Under the pieces are notes generated by a model. The model was not told where the DNA came from. It searched no databases and saw nothing but the letters and a program-made list of their open reading frames with translations. A stretch of DNA of 64,000 nucleotides from Haematomicrobium sanguinis DSM 21259 (GTDB lineage: Bacteria; Actinomycetota; Actinomycetes; Actinomycetales; Micrococcaceae): NCBI RefSeq assembly GCF_000688395.1, contig NZ_JIAG01000012.1:1-64000 (forward strand), in the 5' to 3' direction. Shown here piece after piece: positions 50,543-59,949 of this stretch (within the stretch, counting starts at the first letter, position 1; every line of letters begins with the position of its first letter). Both the position numbers and the translations under genes were made by a program.

Positions 50543-53110
50543 GTGGCTACTTTTCTTTACCGACTAGGCAAGTCCGCGGCCGCCCAGCGCTGGTGGTTTA
50601 TCGCGGTGTGGGCGCTCATTGTTATTGCCGTCGCCTCCAGTGCGCTGAGCCTAGGCAAGGGGTTCAAAGACAACTTTGAACTCCCCGGCACACCCGGGCA
50701 AGAAGTCTTGAATGATTTGGAGAAGAAGTTCCCGGACTCCACCGGCGGGCTCGGCGTCATCTCCTTCTCCACTAGTGACGGTAAGGCGTTCACTGCTGAG
50801 CAGCGCGAGTCCATCACCAGCGCGCTGGAAGAGATTGGCCGTCAGGACACGGTGCAAGCGGTCGCCAACCCGTTTGAGGTGCAGCAGCAACTCGATGGTG
50901 CCGCCGAAAAAATTGCCAGCGGCCAGCAAGAGCTCGATAAGGCCAAGGCCGAGGTTGCGCAGGGCCAACAGCAACTAGATCAGCAAAAGCCAGTCCTGGA
51001 TGCGGCCAAACAGCAGATCGATGCCGCCAAGACGCAAATCCAGCAATTGCGCGACGCCGGGCAGAGCGCCGCCGCCGATGCCGCCGCCGCCCAACTGGCG
51101 CCGCGAGAGCAGCAATATCAGCAGGGTCAAGCGCAGTATGACCAGGCGAAGAAGCAGCTCGATGAGGCAAACACCCAGATCGCCGAAAACACCGAAAAAC
51201 TTCGCCAGGGCGAAGCGCAGCAAACCATCACCGAAGGGTACCGCACGGTCAACGCGGAGGGGGATGTCGCCTACGCCCAGGTGGTGTTCACCGACGCGCT
51301 GCAAAATCTGACTGCGGAACAACGCGACGCGGTCAAGGAAGCGGCGAACACGGCCCAGGGCAATGGGGTCGAGGTCAATCTCAGCCAAGAAATCGTCCAA
51401 GAGATCTCGCTCTTTGGCCCCTCCGAGGCGATCGGTGTCGCGGTCGCGGTAGCGGTCCTGCTCATCATGCTCGGCACCTTAATCGCGGCCGGACTCCCGC
51501 TGCTGATGGCGCTGGTGGGCGTCGCGGTCGGGGTAGGCGGAACCTATGTGCTCACTGCCTGGGTGGAAATGGGGTCCATGACCTCGGTTCTCGGCCTCAT
51601 GTTGGGGCTCGCAGTGGGTATCGACTACTCGCTGTTTATTGTGAACCGACACCGCAACCAGTTGCTGGGCGGCATGGACCTGCGCGAGTCCATAGCCCGC
51701 GCCATTGGCACCTCCGGCAACGCGGTGCTGTTTGCTGGAATCACCGTCATCATCGCGCTCATTGCGCTCGCGGTGCCCGGGATCCCGTTCCTTTCGCTCA
51801 TCGGCTATTCCGGTGCGGCAACCGTTGCGGTGGCCGTCCTGGTGGCCATCACGCTCACACCGGCGCTCTTGTCCCTGATTGGTACACGCATCCTCTCCAA
51901 GCGCCAGTGGGCCAAGGTTGGCAGCGAACCGGTAGGCGAAGACGGCGAAGTGGTCCACACCCCGCGCCGCAGTTGGGCGAACGTCACGACCAAGCATCCC
52001 TGGCTCGTGGGCATCGCCACGATCGTGGTTCTCGGCGTCGCGGCCATCCCGGCCGCCTCGCTCCGCTTGGCCCTGCCCGACGGCGGGTTCGAACCAGCCG
52101 AAAGCACCGCGTACAAGTCCTATAAGAGCATTGAGGACAACTTCGGTGCCGGCTACAACGCGCCGCTCTTGATGGTGGTGGATCTGCCCCAGGGCTCCAA
52201 CGAAACCACCGGCACTCAGACGTTGGCGCAGGTCGCTACCCAGGTCAGGGACCGCTACGACATTGCCGCCATTACCCCCGGTGGTTTCAACGCCGACTAC
52301 AGCACCGCCACTTTGCGCATCATCCCGACCACCGGTCCCTCGGATGAGGCGACAGAGAAGCTCGTGCAGGACATGCGCACCTCGCTCGGCGAGATAGGCG
52401 CCCAAACCGACACCACGGTCAAGATCACCGGCGTGCCGGTGATTCAAATCGATGTCTCCGAGAAACTCACCGAAGCGCTGCCCGTGTACTTGAGTGTCGT
52501 CGTCGGACTTTCCTTGGTGTTGATGCTGTTGGTATTCCGCTCCATCCTGGTGCCCATTGTTGCGACCATCGGTTTTGTTCTCACCATCGGTGCCACGTTT
52601 GGCGCGGTGGTTGCGGTCTATAGCTGGGGCTGGCTGCCGGACCTGTTCGGCGTGCACAACCCGGGGCCCATCCTGAGTTTTGCGCCGCTCATTCTGACCG
52701 GTGTGCTCTTCGGGCTGGCGATGGACTACCAAATGTTCCTGGTATCCGGGATGCGTGAATCCTTTGTGCACGGTGCCGGCGCGCGGCAATCGGTCGTTGA
52801 CGGTTTCAACCACGGTTCCCGGGTGGTCACCGCGGCTGCGATCATCATGATCTCGGTGTTTGCCGGCTTCATTTTCGCGCACCTGGCCATGGTGCGGCCG
52901 CTCGGGTTGGGGCTGGCGTTCGGTGTGCTGGTGGATGCGTTCATTGTCCGCATGACCTTTACCCCCGCTGTCATGACCTTGCTCGGCAAGTGGGCGTGGT
53001 GGATCCCGCGCTGGCTCGACCGCATTCTGCCCGATGTGGATGTGGAGGGCGCGAAGCTCAGTAAGCCCGGGGCGAACAGTACTCGCGGACGCCACGCCCA
53101 AACCGTGTGA
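50543..53110 (+). CDS. MMPL/RND-superfamily exporter
   Basis: Large membrane protein of 855 residues with two MMPL modules: helices near 18-38, 285-450 and 640-815. The first extracytoplasmic loop (about 95-245) is a Gln/Ala-rich coiled coil (QQELDKAKAEVAQGQQQLDQ), unusually long. Motif GLAVGIDYSLFIVNRHRNQ, followed in module two by GLAMDYQMFLVSGMRES, carries the proton-relay Asp residues. GTG start with GAGGAG upstream. Substrate may be lipids, drugs or siderophores; not inferable from sequence. Confidence 0.9.
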   Translation: MATFLYRLGKSAAAQRWWFIAVWALIVIAVASSALSLGKGFKDNFELPGTPGQEVLNDLEKKFPDSTGGLGVISFSTSDGKAFTAEQRESITSALEEIGRQDTVQAVANPFEVQQQLDGAAEKIASGQQELDKAKAEVAQGQQQLDQQKPVLDAAKQQIDAAKTQIQQLRDAGQSAAADAAAAQLAPREQQYQQGQAQYDQAKKQLDEANTQIAENTEKLRQGEAQQTITEGYRTVNAEGDVAYAQVVFTDALQNLTAEQRDAVKEAANTAQGNGVEVNLSQEIVQEISLFGPSEAIGVAVAVAVLLIMLGTLIAAGLPLLMALVGVAVGVGGTYVLTAWVEMGSMTSVLGLMLGLAVGIDYSLFIVNRHRNQLLGGMDLRESIARAIGTSGNAVLFAGITVIIALIALAVPGIPFLSLIGYSGAATVAVAVLVAITLTPALLSLIGTRILSKRQWAKVGSEPVGEDGEVVHTPRRSWANVTTKHPWLVGIATIVVLGVAAIPAASLRLALPDGGFEPAESTAYKSYKSIEDNFGAGYNAPLLMVVDLPQGSNETTGTQTLAQVATQVRDRYDIAAITPGGFNADYSTATLRIIPTTGPSDEATEKLVQDMRTSLGEIGAQTDTTVKITGVPVIQIDVSEKLTEALPVYLSVVVGLSLVLMLLVFRSILVPIVATIGFVLTIGATFGAVVAVYSWGWLPDLFGVHNPGPILSFAPLILTGVLFGLAMDYQMFLVSGMRESFVHGAGARQSVVDGFNHGSRVVTAAAIIMISVFAGFIFAHLAMVRPLGLGLAFGVLVDAFIVRMTFTPAVMTLLGKWAWWIPRWLDRILPDVDVEGAKLSKPGANSTRGRHAQTV

Positions 53111-53129
53111 GCGGGTCGAAAGTGAGAGA

Positions 53130-54869
53130 ATGAGGAGCGTGTGTGCTCCACTAGATGAACCCGTTCTCTCTCGCGCCGGCTTGCCCGAGCGGGTGGCGCG
53201 CATCGACCTCGGGGCCATTCAAGCCAACGTGGAGCGAATCCGTAGCATGGTCTCGCCCAGCCGGGTGATGGCGGTGGTCAAAGCCAACGGTTACGGGCAC
53301 GGCATGGTTCCGGTTGCGCAGGCCGCCATCCGAGGCGGTGCGGCGTGGCTGGGCACCGCCCACGTCAGCGAAGCCGTCGAGCTACGCGGTGCCGGGGTGA
53401 GCGTCCCGATTTTGACCTGGTTGCACACCAGTGAAACCGATTTTGACGCTGCCATTCGATCCGGGATCGATGTCGCCACGTCGGGCTGGGAGCTGGCGCA
53501 CATCGCGCAAGCGGCGCGTCGGCTGGAGCAGCCGGCCCGGGTCCAACTCAAGATCGATACCGGGCTTGGCCGGAACGGTGCCACCGCTGAGAATTGGGAT
53601 GCCTTGCTCGGTCAGGCGCTGGAGCTACAAGAATCCGGCTTGATCCGCGTCACCGGAATTTTTTCTCACCTGGCTGTGGCCGATGAGCCGCACCGCACCG
53701 AGACCGATGAACAGCTCGCGAAATTTCATGAAGCCATCGCGATGGCAGAGGATGCCGGGCTAGATGTGGAAGTGCGCCATCTGGCCAACACCCCGGCGGC
53801 GCTGTCCCGCCCCGATACGCACTTTGATTTGGTGCGCGTGGGTATTGGCATGTACGGGCTCTCGCCCTTTGAACATTTGAGCCCGGCGGATTTGGGGCTC
53901 GTCCCGGCGATGACGCTGGCGACCGTTGTTGCCAACGCGAAAAACGTTCCCGCCGGGCACGGCGTGTCTTATGGGCTGCGATACACCACACCGGAAGCAA
54001 CCACACTGGTCCTGATTCCCCTCGGTTATGCCGACGGCATTCCGCGTTCCGCGTCCGGCGGTCCCGTACTGGTGGACGGGCACAAACGTGCGGTGGTCGG
54101 CACCATCGCGATGGACCAGCTGGTGGTGGATATGGGCCGCGCCTACGAGAATCCGGGCGACCTTGTGGGCAGCGAGGCCATCCTCTTCGGCGCCGACGGC
54201 GAGCAGCCGCTAGCCGACGAATGGGCGCGGGCCGCGGGAACCATCAACTATGAAATCGTCACCAGGATCGGTCCGCGGGTCACCCGCGAATTTGTGAATT
54301 CTGCCGAGCCGCAGACGCCGGGCGAGGCGCAGTGGCAGATCACGGTCTCGACGGACTCCCTGGAGCAAACACAATCCGTTGCCGCCCAGTTTGCTCAAGC
54401 GTTACGGCCGGGCGACCTCATCATCCTCGATGGGGAACTCGGCGCCGGCAAGACCACCTTCACCCAGGGGCTCGGTGCGGGGTTGGGCGTGGAAGACGGA
54501 ATCATTTCGCCGACCTTTGTGCTCCAGCGGGTGCACCGCTCGCTTCGCGGCGGCCCCGACCTCATCCACGTTGACGCCTACCGGTTGGGCGAGGATCCGG
54601 ATGCGCTCGATAGCCTCGATTTGGAATCAACCTTGGATACCTCCGTCACGGTCGTGGAGTGGGGGAAGGAACGCGTGGAGTATTTGACGCCAAATTTTGT
54701 TCAGGTATCGCTGCGGCGCGAGACGGCATCGCCCGGTCACACCCATCCCGCCGACGCCGAGGTTCAAACCGACTTTTCCGCCGAAGACGAGGACCAACGC
54801 ACCATCACTTTCCGTGCCTTCGGTGAGCGCTGGCGCGGCAAACCGCCGCAGTTGACGGGCGCGGAGTAA
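53130..54869 (+). CDS. alr-tsaE: Fused alanine racemase / TsaE ATPase
   Basis: A single 579-residue frame. Residues ~15-385 are a PLP alanine racemase supplying D-alanine: catalytic K51 in VVKANGYGHG, with GTIAMDQLVVDMG carrying the second-site region. Residues ~405-570 are TsaE, the ATPase of the t6A37 tRNA complex, with P-loop G435-T443 (GELGAGKTT) and VVEWGKERVEYL. The domains are joined without a stop. ATG at 53130 is chosen; the frame extends 32 codons upstream into the MMPL gene. tsaB follows after 3 bp, so the fusion leads a t6A operon. Confidence 0.93.
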   Translation: MRSVCAPLDEPVLSRAGLPERVARIDLGAIQANVERIRSMVSPSRVMAVVKANGYGHGMVPVAQAAIRGGAAWLGTAHVSEAVELRGAGVSVPILTWLHTSETDFDAAIRSGIDVATSGWELAHIAQAARRLEQPARVQLKIDTGLGRNGATAENWDALLGQALELQESGLIRVTGIFSHLAVADEPHRTETDEQLAKFHEAIAMAEDAGLDVEVRHLANTPAALSRPDTHFDLVRVGIGMYGLSPFEHLSPADLGLVPAMTLATVVANAKNVPAGHGVSYGLRYTTPEATTLVLIPLGYADGIPRSASGGPVLVDGHKRAVVGTIAMDQLVVDMGRAYENPGDLVGSEAILFGADGEQPLADEWARAAGTINYEIVTRIGPRVTREFVNSAEPQTPGEAQWQITVSTDSLEQTQSVAAQFAQALRPGDLIILDGELGAGKTTFTQGLGAGLGVEDGIISPTFVLQRVHRSLRGGPDLIHVDAYRLGEDPDALDSLDLESTLDTSVTVVEWGKERVEYLTPNFVQVSLRRETASPGHTHPADAEVQTDFSAEDEDQRTITFRAFGERWRGKPPQLTGAE

Positions 54870-54872
54870 CGC

Positions 54873-55535
54873 ATGCACCTGGCCATTGATACCTCCGCTA
54901 CCGCAAGCGCCGCACTCATTTCCAACGGCATCGTCCTGGCCGAAACCTCCACCCAGGACACCCGTTCGCACTCCGAAGTGAGCGTGCCACAGGTCGCCGC
55001 CGTTTTGGCCGAGGCCGGGGTGGGTCCAGAACGCCTCGACGGCATTTTTGTGTCGGTGGGACCCGGGCCGTTCACGGGTTTGCGAGTGGGCATCGCCGAG
55101 GCGCGGGTCCTTTCCGAAGTGTGGGGTGTGCCCCTCTACGGGGTGATGGCGCACTATGCGCTTGCCTGGGACGTCATGGCATCCGGTCACAGCGCGCCAT
55201 TCTTGATCGTCACCGACGCGCGCCGCCGCGAGGTGTATTGGAGCGCGTTTTCTGCCGAAGGCACTCTGCTCGACGGGCCACACGTGAGCGCACCCACCGA
55301 GGTGCCGTCGAGCTACGCGCACTACCGGGCCTTCGGGTTTGGCGCCGGACTCTATCCGGACGCCTTCCACGTGGACCCAGACTTTGCACACCGCCAACCC
55401 GGCGCCGCATCGCTGGGGCGTTATGGCCAGGGTGCGCTTGCGGCCGGCATCGCGTTGCCCGGCACTGAACCGTTGTACTTACGCGACTCGGACGCGAAGA
55501 TCCCCGCGGCCCGGAAACTCGGGGGAAAAGCATGA
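54873..55535 (+). CDS. tsaB: t6A complex subunit TsaB
   Basis: Inactive ASKHA-fold scaffold of the t6A37 complex, partner of TsaD. The 220 residues begin [20 protein letters not shown] and contain [20 protein letters not shown], the family signature. ATG at 54873, 3 bp after alr-tsaE. The stop overlaps the rimI-tsaD start by ATGA. Confidence 0.94.
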
Positions 55536-57202
55536 TGAACGACGGCGTGAGGTCGCCTTCCGCGGTTCGCTTCCGGAGCATGCAACTCGCCGATATCCAC
55601 GTGGTGCATGATCTGGAAACCGAGCTCTTCCCCCATGATGCGTGGCCGCTGGCACTGTTTCATTCCGAGCTCACCCATGAGGACACCCGCTGGTATTGGG
55701 TGGTCGAATCCGAGGCGGAACCCGGGCGAGTCATCGGCTATGCGGGGCTCATGTACCTGTCCCCGATTGCCGATATTCAAACCATCGCGGTGCACCCGGA
55801 TTATGAGGGTCAGGGCATCGGGAGCAGCCTGTTGCAGCGGATGATTTCCGAAAGCATTCGCCGCGGTGCCGAAGCGATCATGCTTGAGGTGCGCAAGGAC
55901 AATGAGCGGGCTACTCGGCTTTACGAGCGTTTTGGCTTTGAAACGATCGGCGAAAGGCCGCGATATTACGGCGACGGCGCAGACGCGGCGGTCATGCGGA
56001 AGGAACTCGGCGCAGAGCAAGCGGCTTCGAACGCGCAAGGGGACGCGACCGGCCCCGCTGCCGTCGATTCGACGCCCGCTGTCCCCGCGCTGCCCCGGGA
56101 ACCGCTGATTTTGGGTATTGAAACCTCGTGCGATGAGACGGGCGTGGGTATTGTGCGTGGCACCGCGCTGCTCGCGAATGTGGTGGCGTCCTCCATGGAA
56201 CTGCACGTACCATACGGCGGGGTGATCCCGGAGATCGCGGCCCGCGCGCACTTGGACGCCCTGACTCCGACCATTGCCGAGGCGTTGAACCAGGCGGATG
56301 TGGCGCTGGAGGACCTCGATGCGATAGCCGTCACGAGCGGTCCAGGGTTGGCCGGTGCGCTCATGGTCGGTGTCGCCGGAGCCAAGGCGCTGGGCTTGGC
56401 CACCGGGAAGCCGCTCTATGGACTCAACCACCTGGTCGGTCACATCGCCGTGGGCTTGCTGGATGCCGGCGTCGAGACATTGCCGCCCCACCTTGGCGCA
56501 CTCTTGGTTTCCGGCGGCCACACCGAGATCCTGAAGGTTAATTCGTTGACCGAGGATGTCGAGCTGTTGGGGTCGACCATAGACGATGCGGCCGGCGAAG
56601 CATATGACAAGGTGGCCCGCATCCTCGGCCTGGACTACCCGGGTGGGCCGGCGATCGACAAACTCGCCAGAGACGGGGACCCGAAAGCATTCACCTTCCC
56701 GCGAGCCCTGTCCCTGCCGAAATTTATGGGTAGCGCCGAGAACCCGGGTAAGCACCGCTACGACTTCTCCTTCAGCGGGCTCAAGACCGCGGCGCTACGG
56801 GCCGTGGAACAGTTTGAGGCGCGCGGCCTGCCGGTCCCGGCCGCCGATATCGCGGCAAGTTTCCAGGAGGCAGTTGCGGATGTGCTCACCTGCAAGACGA
56901 TTCTCGCCGCCCAAGAAAACGGCATCGATGCGCTGCTCCTGGGTGGGGGAGTGGCCGCGAATTCGCGCATCCGCTCGCTGTTGGCCGAGCGCTGCGCCGA
57001 GGCCGGCATTGAGCTCATCACCCCGCCCATCGCGCTCTGCACAGACAACGGCGCGATGATCGCAACCCTCGGCGCGCAAGTGATGTCGGCCGGCGTTGCC
57101 CCGAGCGGACTCAATTTCGAATCCGACCCCTCCCAGCCAGTCACCGAAATCACCACCACCCCCCAATCGACTGTGCAGAACACGCACGCGACACGCCGTT
57201 AA
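55532..57202 (+). CDS. rimI-tsaD: Fused RimI acetyltransferase / TsaD
   Basis: One 556-residue frame. Residues ~12-155 are a GNAT domain (RimI, S18-alanine acetyltransferase): [20 protein letters not shown] and [19 protein letters not shown] ~35-residue Ala/Pro linker follows. Residues ~190-540 are Tsa[27 protein letters not shown], the metal site [11 protein letters not shown] and VSGGHTE. The last ~13 residues ([13 protein letters not shown]) and the stop codon are encoded by a dispersed hairpin (57165-57229), so the natural C-terminus seems to have been replaced. It overlaps tsaB by 4 bases. Confidence 0.93.
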
Positions 57203-57229
57203 AGCGTGCATTTTCTGCACAGTCGACTT
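57165..57229. repeat. 65-bp hairpin element, reverse copy, at the tsaD 3' end
   Basis: AATCGACTGTGCAGAA (57165-57180) pairs with the arm ending TTCTGCACAGTCGA (57213-57226). The interior matches the reverse complement of 15537-15576. The TAA at 57200-57202 that ends tsaD is inside this element. Confidence 0.8.
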
Positions 57230-57326
57230 CCAGTGTGCACTTTCCAGGGCCAGCTGACCCCACCTGCCGCCTCGGCGAAGGGGGACGGGGGCAGAGGCAG
57301 TGAGCGCGGGTGCGCCTTGGTGAGGA

Positions 57327-57371
57327 ACGACGGCGGTGCGTCGCCTTAAGAAGGCAACGCACCGCCGTCGT
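57327..57371. repeat. 45-bp hairpin with ACGACGGCG ends
   Basis: ACGACGGCGGTGCGT (57327-57341) pairs with 57357-57371; after one mismatch, GCCTT/AAGGC extends the stem to an AAG loop. It shares the outer motif with the palindrome at 3583 but has different inner bases that still pair. Confidence 0.8.
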
Positions 57372-57389
57372 GCTTCAGCAAGCACCCTC

Positions 57390-57458
57390 CCTCGACTGTG
57401 TAGCAGTTAATGCCCATGACACCGCTCAACATGGGCATTAACTGCTACATAGTCGAGG
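57390..57458. repeat. 69-bp hairpin with 29-bp arms (copy 2)
   Basis: CCTCGACTGTGTAGCAGTTA... (57390-57418) pairs with 57430-57458 with one mismatch; loop acaccgctcaa (11 bases). Against copy 1 (34683) the arms differ at four or more positions, each balanced in the opposite arm. It ends one base before the GlxR-type site. Confidence 0.9.
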
Positions 57459-57474: not shown

Positions 57475-57553
57475 TAAACTGAGCGTGACGATTGCGCACC
57501 GGCGCACGTCTTATCTATGTCAGCAAGTACATCTCGCGAAAGGGACGTAAACA

Positions 57554-58084
57554 ATGAGCACTACTACCCCAGAGAACAAGCAGAACTCCAGCGCGACCAA
57601 GAACTCCCCGGACAAGACGGTAAAGAACGGCGTGGCCGTACCGAATGATTCGGGCGACGCGGGCAAGACCATCATCGAGGGCAACGTTGTTGCCAAGGTG
57701 ATCGGCATCGCAGCGCGGGATGTATCGGGCGTGTACGCGCTCGGTGGCGGAGCGGCTCGGGCGATCGGCGCCATCCGCGATGCCGTCGGCAACACCGACC
57801 TGACTCAGGGCGTGTCCGTCGAAGTTGGCGAAAAACAGGTTGCCGCAGATTTGACGATCGTGGTCGAGTACCCGCAACCGCTCAAGCAGGTCGCTGACGA
57901 TGTGCGCGCCGCCGTGTACAAGGCCGTCGAGGATTTGGTGGGCTTGGAAGTCGTGGAGGTCAACATCTCGATCACCGACATCCACATCCCGTCGGATGAC
58001 AAAGACAAAGAGGATTCCCGTTCGGATGAGAATTCCGGACAGGAGAGCGCTCGCCGCGAGGACAACAGCGGACGCGTTCAGTAA
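57554..58084 (+). CDS. Asp23/Gls24-family envelope stress protein
   Basis: The 176-residue protein has a Ser/Thr/Asn-rich N-terminus and the Asp23 domain (GNVVAKVIGIAARDVSGVYA; VVEYPQPLKQVADDVRAAVY; LVGLEVVEVNISITDIHIP). The C-terminus is Asp/Ser-rich and charged. Asp23 proteins sit beneath the membrane in Gram-positive bacteria and respond to alkaline or envelope stress. The usual membrane anchor AmaP is not seen nearby. csbD follows after 46 bp and a sigma factor thereafter. Confidence 0.9.
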   Translation: MSTTTPENKQNSSATKNSPDKTVKNGVAVPNDSGDAGKTIIEGNVVAKVIGIAARDVSGVYALGGGAARAIGAIRDAVGNTDLTQGVSVEVGEKQVAADLTIVVEYPQPLKQVADDVRAAVYKAVEDLVGLEVVEVNISITDIHIPSDDKDKEDSRSDENSGQESARREDNSGRVQ

Positions 58085-58130
58085 CAGCTGACCCACAAGG
58101 GCCAGTGACCAACCAAGGAGGACATGAAAA

Positions 58131-58346
58131 ATGGGTATCGGAGATAAAGCAGAGAACAAGTTTCAGGACCTCACCGGCAAGGCTAAGGAAGGCGCCGGAA
58201 AGGCCACTGACAACAAAGATCTTGAAGCAGAGGGCAAGGGCGATCAGGCTCAAGCCGGCCTCAAGGACGCTGTAGAGAACGTCAAGGACTTCGCCAAGGA
58301 TGCCGGCGACAAGATCAAGGACGTTTTCAACAAGGATAAGAAGTAA
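58131..58346 (+). CDS. CsbD-family stress protein
   Basis: The 71 residues start MGIGDKAENKFQDLTGKAKE and end DAGDKIKDVFNKDKK. This is the CsbD pattern of small, charged, general-stress proteins. The ribosome site AAGGAGG (58115-58121) is closer to an out-of-frame ATG at 58124, which would make MKNGYRR and stop inside csbD, so initiation may be affected. A terminator-like hairpin follows. Confidence 0.87.
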   Translation: MGIGDKAENKFQDLTGKAKEGAGKATDNKDLEAEGKGDQAQAGLKDAVENVKDFAKDAGDKIKDVFNKDKK

Positions 58347-58367
58347 CCCACACCACAACCCCTAAGC

Positions 58368-58415
58368 CGATGCCCGGTTCGCCCGTCCCCCCATTGAGCG
58401 GTGAGCCGGGCATCG
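58368..58415 (+). terminator. Stem-loop after csbD
   Basis: CGATGCCCGG (58368-58377) pairs with CCGGGCATCG (58406-58415) around a 28-base loop. It separates asp23-csbD from the sigma-factor gene. Confidence 0.6.
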
Positions 58416-58488
58416 ACCCTCTCAGGGACCTTTTGGGAGTTCGTGACATACTTTTTCGGAGCGAGCGAGTAGCAAAGGGGCGTGATCA

Positions 58489-59037
58489 GTGAGTTACCTT
58501 TCACAAGCGCCCGATGCGCTACTGGTCATCCGTAGCCGGGAGGGCGATCTTGCGGCCTTCGAAGCGTTAGTCACTCGTTACGCGCTACTCATGCGCTCCT
58601 ACGCCTACCGCATCATCGGCTCGCTTCCCGAAGCCGAGGACGCGGTACAAGAAACGCTGATCACGGCATGGCAGACCATGGACAAGCTACGAGAGCCAGC
58701 AAAAGCCAAGAGTTGGCTCATGCGCATTGTCTCGTCAAAGAGCATTGACGCAATCCGGTCACGCAAAGACTACGTTGACCTGGAAGAAGTCGGCGAACCC
58801 GGAACGGAAAGCTCCTCACCCGAGGACGTTGCCATCGCCAGCTCTCGCATGGAAGCGCTCGCGCTGGCGCTCGACAAGCTTCCACCCCTGGGCAGACGTT
58901 GCTGGGTGTTGCGCGAAATCGGGGAGCAGTCCTATGTCGACATCGCCAAACAACTGGGCGTTCCGCCCTCGACCGTCCGTGGACAAATTGCCCGGGCGCG
59001 AGCGTTCCTGGACCATGAATTGAGGGACTGGACATGA
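58489..59037 (+). CDS. ECF-type RNA polymerase sigma factor
   Basis: The 182 residues contain sigma region 2 (AFEALVTRYALLMRSYAYRI; EAEDAVQETLITAWQ) and region 4 with HTH (LGRRCWVLREIGEQSYVDIA; PPSTVRGQIARARAFL). No region 3 is present, as in ECF sigma factors. GTG start with AAAGGGG upstream. The stop overlaps the next gene (ATGA), which is therefore a candidate regulator. Association with asp23 and csbD suggests an envelope-stress regulon. Confidence 0.9.
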   Translation: MSYLSQAPDALLVIRSREGDLAAFEALVTRYALLMRSYAYRIIGSLPEAEDAVQETLITAWQTMDKLREPAKAKSWLMRIVSSKSIDAIRSRKDYVDLEEVGEPGTESSSPEDVAIASSRMEALALALDKLPPLGRRCWVLREIGEQSYVDIAKQLGVPPSTVRGQIARARAFLDHELRDWT

Positions 59038-59630
59038 GCGAAAACCAGTCAAGCGCACTCGGTCAACTCTTGACCGAGTACGATTTCAAAGCACACAGCG
59101 AAAGCGACCGCAATTGGTTGCGCGGCTTTTTGCAAAACATCGCCCTTGAGGCGCAAAGCGGGAGAATGATTCCGCTCGTAGCCCCTGCCGCGCCCGCCGC
59201 AAAGAGCGCGGCGAAGAGCGCCGCCAAGGGCACAGCCAAGGGCACAGCCAAGGGCACAGCCAAAAGCGCCGGGCCCGCAGCCAGCACGGCGGACATTGAA
59301 CTCTGGCAAACCGAAGGCGCACTCCTCGACCTCGTCCGCGCCACCGTGGACGGCCACGATTCGCTCCTGATTGAGCACGTGGAATTCCTTGGCGATGTGT
59401 CGCAAAGCGGTGCCAGCGTGGGCGTGTCATTGACCGCCGTCGTACTTGTGGAAACTACCCCGCAGGGCGCGCCCAAGGCGCCCGCCCTCTCGGCCAGCGC
59501 GGCCGCCGACCGCGCCCGCACCCGTATCCGCGAGGCGCTGGCACGCCACTCGCAACTTCGCGTGGGCGCCATTGACGTGACGATTACCGATGTCATTGTG
59601 TTGCACGCGGCGGAGGACGCCGATGAGTAA
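59034..59630 (+). CDS. Divergent Asp23-like protein with Ala/Lys repeat linker
   Basis: The 198-residue protein, coupled to the sigma gene. Residues 1-45 (LGQLLTEYDFKAHSESDRNW) are not recognised. Residues ~55-80 are an AKGT repeat encoded by three 12-bp units (59223-59258). The C-terminal half resembles an Asp23 domain (IELWQTEGALLDLVRATVDG; RTRIREALARHSQLRVGAID, VTITDVIVLH) but is weakly conserved. No membrane segment or zinc motif is seen, so it is not a classic anti-sigma. Its position suggests a role in controlling or responding to the sigma factor. Confidence 0.7.
   Translation: MSENQSSALGQLLTEYDFKAHSESDRNWLRGFLQNIALEAQSGRMIPLVAPAAPAAKSAAKSAAKGTAKGTAKGTAKSAGPAASTADIELWQTEGALLDLVRATVDGHDSLLIEHVEFLGDVSQSGASVGVSLTAVVLVETTPQGAPKAPALSASAAADRARTRIREALARHSQLRVGAIDVTITDVIVLHAAEDADE
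59223..59258 (+). repeat. Three tandem 12-bp units
   Basis: GCCAAGGGCACA repeated three times without change, encoding AKGT units in the linker of the Asp23-like protein. Expected to vary in copy number by slippage. Confidence 0.85.
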
Positions 59631-59949
59631 GTCCCCAAGCGGATCCGCCGCCTCAGACAAACTCACCCAAGCCGTCGCCGCGCTCGCCGGTGTGGCCGAG
59701 GTGTACCCGCCGCACGGCGCCATCCGTGCCGAAGCGGAGCGGCTGTGGAAGGTCCTGGGCGGCGAAGACCCGGAAACCACCCGCAAGGCCGGGTTCGTGG
59801 AGGTCACCGACAGCAAGGCGACCGCCCGCATTTCGGTGACGGCAGACGCGAGCGCCCCGGACGTCGCTAAGAACGTGGCCGCGCTCCTGGCCAAGCACCA
59901 TCCGGACGCCGAAATCAGCGTCACCGTGGTGCGCATTCAAGGCGACTAG
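59623..59949 (+). CDS. Small protein of unknown function in the sigma operon
   Basis: The 108 residues start MSKSPSGSAASDKLTQAVAA at the ATG at 59623, overlapping the previous gene by 8 bases; the frame is open slightly upstream. The sequence VTADASAPDVAKNVAALLAK with DAEISVTVVRIQGD recalls the last helix-strand pair of Asp23 domains. This may be a second degenerate Asp23 relative. It is the last gene of the sigma operon, with a G+C-rich hairpin following. Confidence 0.65.
   Translation: MSKSPSGSAASDKLTQAVAALAGVAEVYPPHGAIRAEAERLWKVLGGEDPETTRKAGFVEVTDSKATARISVTADASAPDVAKNVAALLAKHHPDAEISVTVVRIQGD

Follow-up and report, generated by a model that had tools for sequence, protein, structure and literature searches.

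The locus at positions 57554–59949 of the window, by which the whole analysed stretch of 64,000 nucleotides is meant, raises the question of how an ECF sigma factor encoded within an asp23 cluster is controlled, and whether the Asp23-like protein encoded by the overlapping downstream gene is its regulator. The locus comprises five genes, all on the forward strand. The first is asp23 (57554..58084; PF03780, E 9e-25), which scores 87.6 bits against the Asp23 family gathering cut-off of 28 in Pfam and whose product is at most 72% identical to those of asp23 genes in relatives' clusters. It is followed by csbD (58131..58346, 71 aa; PF05532, E 2e-14) and by the sigma gene (58489..59037, 182 aa, GTG start), whose product contains Sigma70_r2 (residues 27–93, E 6e-17) and Sigma70_r4_2 (residues 122–174, E 2e-12), that is, regions 2 and 4 without regions 1 and 3, as is characteristic of ECF sigma factors. 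An ATGA at 59034 is common to the sigma stop and the start of the next gene (59034..59630, 198 aa), referred to here as the partner gene. The latter in turn overlaps a third gene (59623..59949, 108 aa), for which a start at 59590 was set aside in favor of the likelier one at 59623. The genes listed in the earlier note, including the two that overlap translationally, are thereby all confirmed. Its description of the last two products as Asp23-like was borne out through the Asp23 matches of their orthologs; neither the 59034 nor the 59623 product matches any Pfam or NCBIfam model or reaches the PF03780 gathering score. Orthologs of the third protein, a small stand-alone Asp23-like protein, are encoded at the equivalent position in relatives and in Streptomyces, and one Streptomyces ortholog (L009:6235-6594) lies above the PF03780 cut-off (30.8 bits, E 4e-7).

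The DNA preceding the locus has several features of its own. Two gene fusions join an alanine racemase to TsaE (53034–54869) and a RimI-like GNAT acetyltransferase to TsaD (55532–57202), and a TsaB-like ORF lies between them. A palindromic repeat (TCGACTGTGCAGAACACGCACGC...) at 57167–57226, just 5' of the asp23 locus, belongs to a family of 39 near-identical genomic copies at up to 3 mismatches, against zero for the reversed pattern. One copy, on contig C4 (G000:C4:76052-76085), adjoins the second asp23 locus of the genome. Two more long inverted repeats occupy the interval between tsaD and asp23 (57390–57458 and 57316–57382); their arms measure 29 nt (97% complementary) and 32 nt (88%), respectively, and they are possibly terminators or mobile palindromes.

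The sigma gene and its neighbours recur well beyond this genome. The nearest named sigma sequences are those of Streptomyces, at about 40–43% identity with a clear drop beyond, and identity within the family reaches 55%. A profile built from Streptomyces-type sigma factors was run on genomes of the window's order and gave strong matches (E ≤1e-32) in 122 of 396, the lowest of which look like ordinary ECF paralogs. Sixty loci were read; one of these (L177), included as a low-scoring control, lacks asp23 and has a neighbour of the ordinary ZAS type, and the remaining 59 were counted. A true asp23 lies within about 4 kb of the sigma gene in 53 of the 59, an association far beyond chance, and a partner with an overlap of -10, -13 or -4 nt is callable in 51, the ORFs of the relatives having been called with a simple script in what is a sample of genomes. 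In the Streptomyces loci, asp23 and the sigma gene are divergently oriented, and the sigma gene is followed by a partner of 210–282 aa and an Asp23-like protein of roughly 110–120 aa, both encoded by overlapping genes. The sigma gene, the partner gene and often the small third gene are thus found across the window's order and Streptomyces, nearly always beside asp23.

The first step of a possible circuit is the transcription of asp23 by this sigma factor. In Staphylococcus, SigB is known to target asp23. In the window, an ECF-type promoter (GTGACGATT-N13-CGTCTTA) lies upstream of asp23 at 57485..57513 on the forward strand and is the sole match to the strict pattern in its own genome. A dyad search found CGTGA-N18-CGTC upstream of 20 of 61 asp23 genes, compared with 7 at most for the best dyad in shuffled sequences, and a refined matrix placed 51 of the 61 above the 99% shuffle level. 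Because this matrix was trained on the same 61-gene set, it was rebuilt with the window excluded, and even then the 57480 site scored 32.3 bits, against 16.8 for the runner-up on both strands of the 64 kb. The strict pattern has 10 matches in 18 sigma-bearing genomes (none when reversed), nine of them about 70–160 nt 5' of the Asp23 domain. Two strict sites (L183, L189) precede asp23 operons that are far from the sigma gene and unlinked to it, and in two other genomes (L216, L218) the motif stands 5' of the sigma gene itself. A slightly looser pattern yielded 63 matches in 56 of the 396 genomes versus 3 when reversed; among the sites that were read as loci, 14 lie at asp23 or sigma, and the others read, at neither, may be chance or other targets. 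No motif above threshold was found upstream of the window sigma gene or of the scored sigma set, nor upstream of the asp23 on contig C4, and Streptomyces asp23 genes scored below threshold. Since the strict site is unique in its genome and equivalent sites precede most relatives' asp23 genes, including those in unlinked operons, the 58489 sigma factor very probably drives asp23. Some families (L150, L157, L164, L168, L169) have a CACTCA-like -10 element before asp23 in place of CGTCTTA, as though promoter and sigma factor had drifted in concert.

Asp23 is known to form filaments and to be anchored at the membrane through AmaP (PMC6954212). The earlier note reported that AmaP was missing, which is correct for the locus and not for the genome. 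The latter (2.9 Mb, 27 contigs) carries one further asp23, on contig C4 near 75 kb, followed by a small gene that the author read as DUF2273-like (it has no Pfam match), an Asp23-like gene, and an AmaP-like gene with DUF6286. AmaP is consequently encoded in an unlinked asp23 operon and not in that of the window. In the closest family members, the order is asp23, amaP, csbD, sigma, partner and third gene (L118, L119, L124; reversed in L120 and L123), so that csbD sits between amaP and sigma, and most of the close family members searched have a second amaP elsewhere. Because these relatives carry amaP between asp23 and csbD, its absence from the window is a local loss: the amaP part is gone here, with only the C4 copy kept. 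The C4 locus, with its AmaP-like gene and DUF2273-like small protein, resembles the Asp23–AmaP system of Staphylococcus aureus, as the window locus does in having Asp23; the difference from that system lies in the linkage of the window asp23 to an ECF sigma factor.

The second step concerns the partner, whose origin is seen more clearly in relatives. Most partners in the window's clade combine an N-terminal ZAS-type anti-sigma domain (Cys...Hx3Cx2C) with a C-terminal Asp23-like domain; in the alignment they start with CGHSL.ELS.YL...H...C..C and end in the Asp23-like domain. The CxxC part is present in 21 of 51 partners from the order and in all five Streptomyces partners aligned. Asp23 matches were obtained for 38 of 57 aligned partners (E up to 1, best 4e-13) and AmaP-model matches for 17, and a few matched anti-sigma models weakly. 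Direct Pfam searching gave a weak zf-HC2 match in two members (E 0.08), and an HMM of the partner N-terminus (19 sequences) was therefore run instead, with no preselection of targets, on the complete set of 3,228 ORFs in 73 unrelated ECF loci. ORFs located just downstream of those ECF sigma genes, evidently their own anti-sigma genes, came out at the top of the ranking (E 3e-6 to 0.06). The top PDB sequence match of the partner was 3hug (E 0.15), the RslA–SigL complex. From the HMM ranks and the 3hug match, a ZAS ancestry is concluded for the partner N-terminus. Foldseek and VIA-align matched the AlphaFold2 model of a Streptomyces partner (confidence 73) only in its C-terminal alpha/beta domain, the similar structures (Z about 10) being MamM and ring-forming secretion proteins; a sequence search for an Asp23 structure found none. 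The partner orthologs thus resemble ZAS anti-sigmas (RslA, RsrA and kin) in their Cys...Hx3Cx2C N-terminus and in adjoining and overlapping the sigma gene. The window protein, in contrast, has no cysteine, and hence no Hx3Cx2C finger, and its second domain is Asp23-like and not a membrane or redox sensor.

Alignment with the nearest relative, L120, indicates what the window partner has lost. The two proteins are 35% identical, and the window partner begins near residue 49 of the L120 protein; the Cys-rich zinc-finger part, about 45 residues, is deleted. A helical segment ending in DRNWLRGFLQNIALEAQSGRMIPL is retained (59046..59177, forward strand; residues 49–92 of the L120 partner, 45% identity, E 7e-7), followed on the same strand by an AKS/AKGT repeat linker (59196..59273), a window-specific insertion among the aligned relatives, and by the Asp23-like C-terminal domain (59286..59609), homologous to the PF03780-matching C-termini of relatives. 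The AlphaFold2 model of the window partner has low confidence (pLDDT 56.6, poorest in the linker region 43–82), so no claim about its fold is built on it. Since L120, with which the window pairs in the sigma tree, keeps the CxxC part, the loss in the window is an event of its own. Across the sigma tree, the finger-less state requires four changes, and branches with good support make at least three of these unavoidable; the same part has disappeared on at least three separate occasions. Partners that keep the anti-sigma domain pattern (GHTIEELSDYLD...) and have lost the zinc cysteines are found in one group (L134–L136, L138, L144 and L170), and represent a step between the zinc-binding and finger-less forms. 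On this evidence (synteny, overlap and alignment), the 59034 partner is a trimmed anti-sigma derivative fused to an Asp23-like domain, and its retained helix is predicted to bind the sigma factor. The lack of a classical anti-sigma, pointed out in the earlier note, goes back to a local loss of the zinc finger, which relatives of the window protein have, and not to an independent invention.

These observations can be combined into a self-contained envelope-stress module, consisting of a sigma-driven asp23, an Asp23-fused regulator and sensing of the Asp23 layer, which as a whole is somewhat favored; the conserved order and overlap of the sigma, partner and third genes count for it, and the poor model of the window partner and the sub-threshold scores of the Streptomyces asp23 genes against it. 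In its first step, the ECF sigma factor would bind the GTGACGA-N15-CGTC promoter and transcribe asp23-csbD and, probably, by read-through, also the sigma gene together with the partner and third genes; this step is highly probable. In the second, rated as probable, the overlapping partner would be the regulator of the sigma factor, a ZAS-derived anti-sigma with a fused Asp23-like domain; one putative sigma-contacting helix and the Asp23-like domain are left of it in the window. The Asp23-derived partner proposed earlier as sigma regulator is accordingly the best candidate, being a conserved, overlapping neighbour with a ZAS N-terminus in relatives. The third step is tentative. With the same type of domain in sensor and target, the regulator may monitor the submembrane Asp23 layer through its Asp23-like domain, assisted by the third protein; disturbance or depletion of that layer would then alter the amount of free sigma factor.

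In the most serious alternative, asp23 is under the control of the sigma factor but the trimmed partner has ceased to bind this factor, the sigma level being set by its own transcription and the partner serving as a structural component of the Asp23 layer. Deletion of the zinc finger in the window, and repeatedly elsewhere, would agree with this, as would the longer branch of the window sigma factor (0.77 versus 0.30 for its sister) and the fact that short, finger-less partners in several families often lack a third gene; the long branch and the single retained anti-sigma helix would also fit relaxed or lost regulation. However, the window partner gene persists and overlaps the sigma gene, its W-helix-GR-IPL segment was kept after the deletion, and the sigma–partner overlap is retained in the lineages that lose the finger. 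This alternative is consequently rather unlikely, though a real contender. It is improbable that the true regulator is the third gene product or a distant classical anti-sigma, with the overlapping partner as an adaptor. The third protein is Asp23-like, and in many lineages its gene and the partner gene are conserved together, but many loci have sigma and partner without it, the ZAS domain resides in the partner and not in the third protein, and the zinc-finger segment of L120 has no other match in the window's own genome. Least probable is that envelope genes and an unrelated ECF sigma factor are mere neighbours, which would accord with the differing order and strand around the module between families but is largely refuted by the promoter data, the motif accompanying asp23 even where asp23 is unlinked from sigma; the proximity of the two genes in most loci also speaks against it.

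The arrangement itself, which the earlier note considered novel, is not new, because the idea is in print and the module is widespread in actinobacteria. A 2022 review places ECF286 and ECF292, groups of the Casas-Pastor et al. 2021 classification, next to genes for soluble proteins of the Asp23 family, for which an anti-sigma role is predicted without experimental data (PMC8999054). The window sigma gene has the same neighbourhood, lying beside a soluble Asp23-family protein predicted as an anti-sigma, and resembles these groups, whose model members are actinobacterial, by gene neighbourhood. The review contains no data on a ZAS–Asp23 fusion, its loss, or an asp23 promoter (PMC8999054), and a search of the open-licence literature, which leaves many journals outside, returned no publication on the fusion, its repeated loss or the promoter, and no experiments on the Asp23-linked sigma module. 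The ZAS–Asp23 fusion, its repeated trimming and the asp23 promoter are what this analysis adds.

For the ECF286 and ECF292 groups, the conserved promoter and the Asp23-domain regulator turn a genomic guess into a concrete, testable circuit, and the natural losses in the window and its relatives show which portion of the anti-sigma can be dispensed with. A more specific and doubtful version of the circuit is co-assembly of the anti-sigma, through its Asp23-like domain, with the layer of Asp23 filaments at the membrane, whose physical state would set the free sigma factor and hence the production of more Asp23. In the window lineage, which has no zinc finger, the shared domain and a single helix would suffice for this loop. 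If this version is true, the sensor would be a domain copy of its own target.
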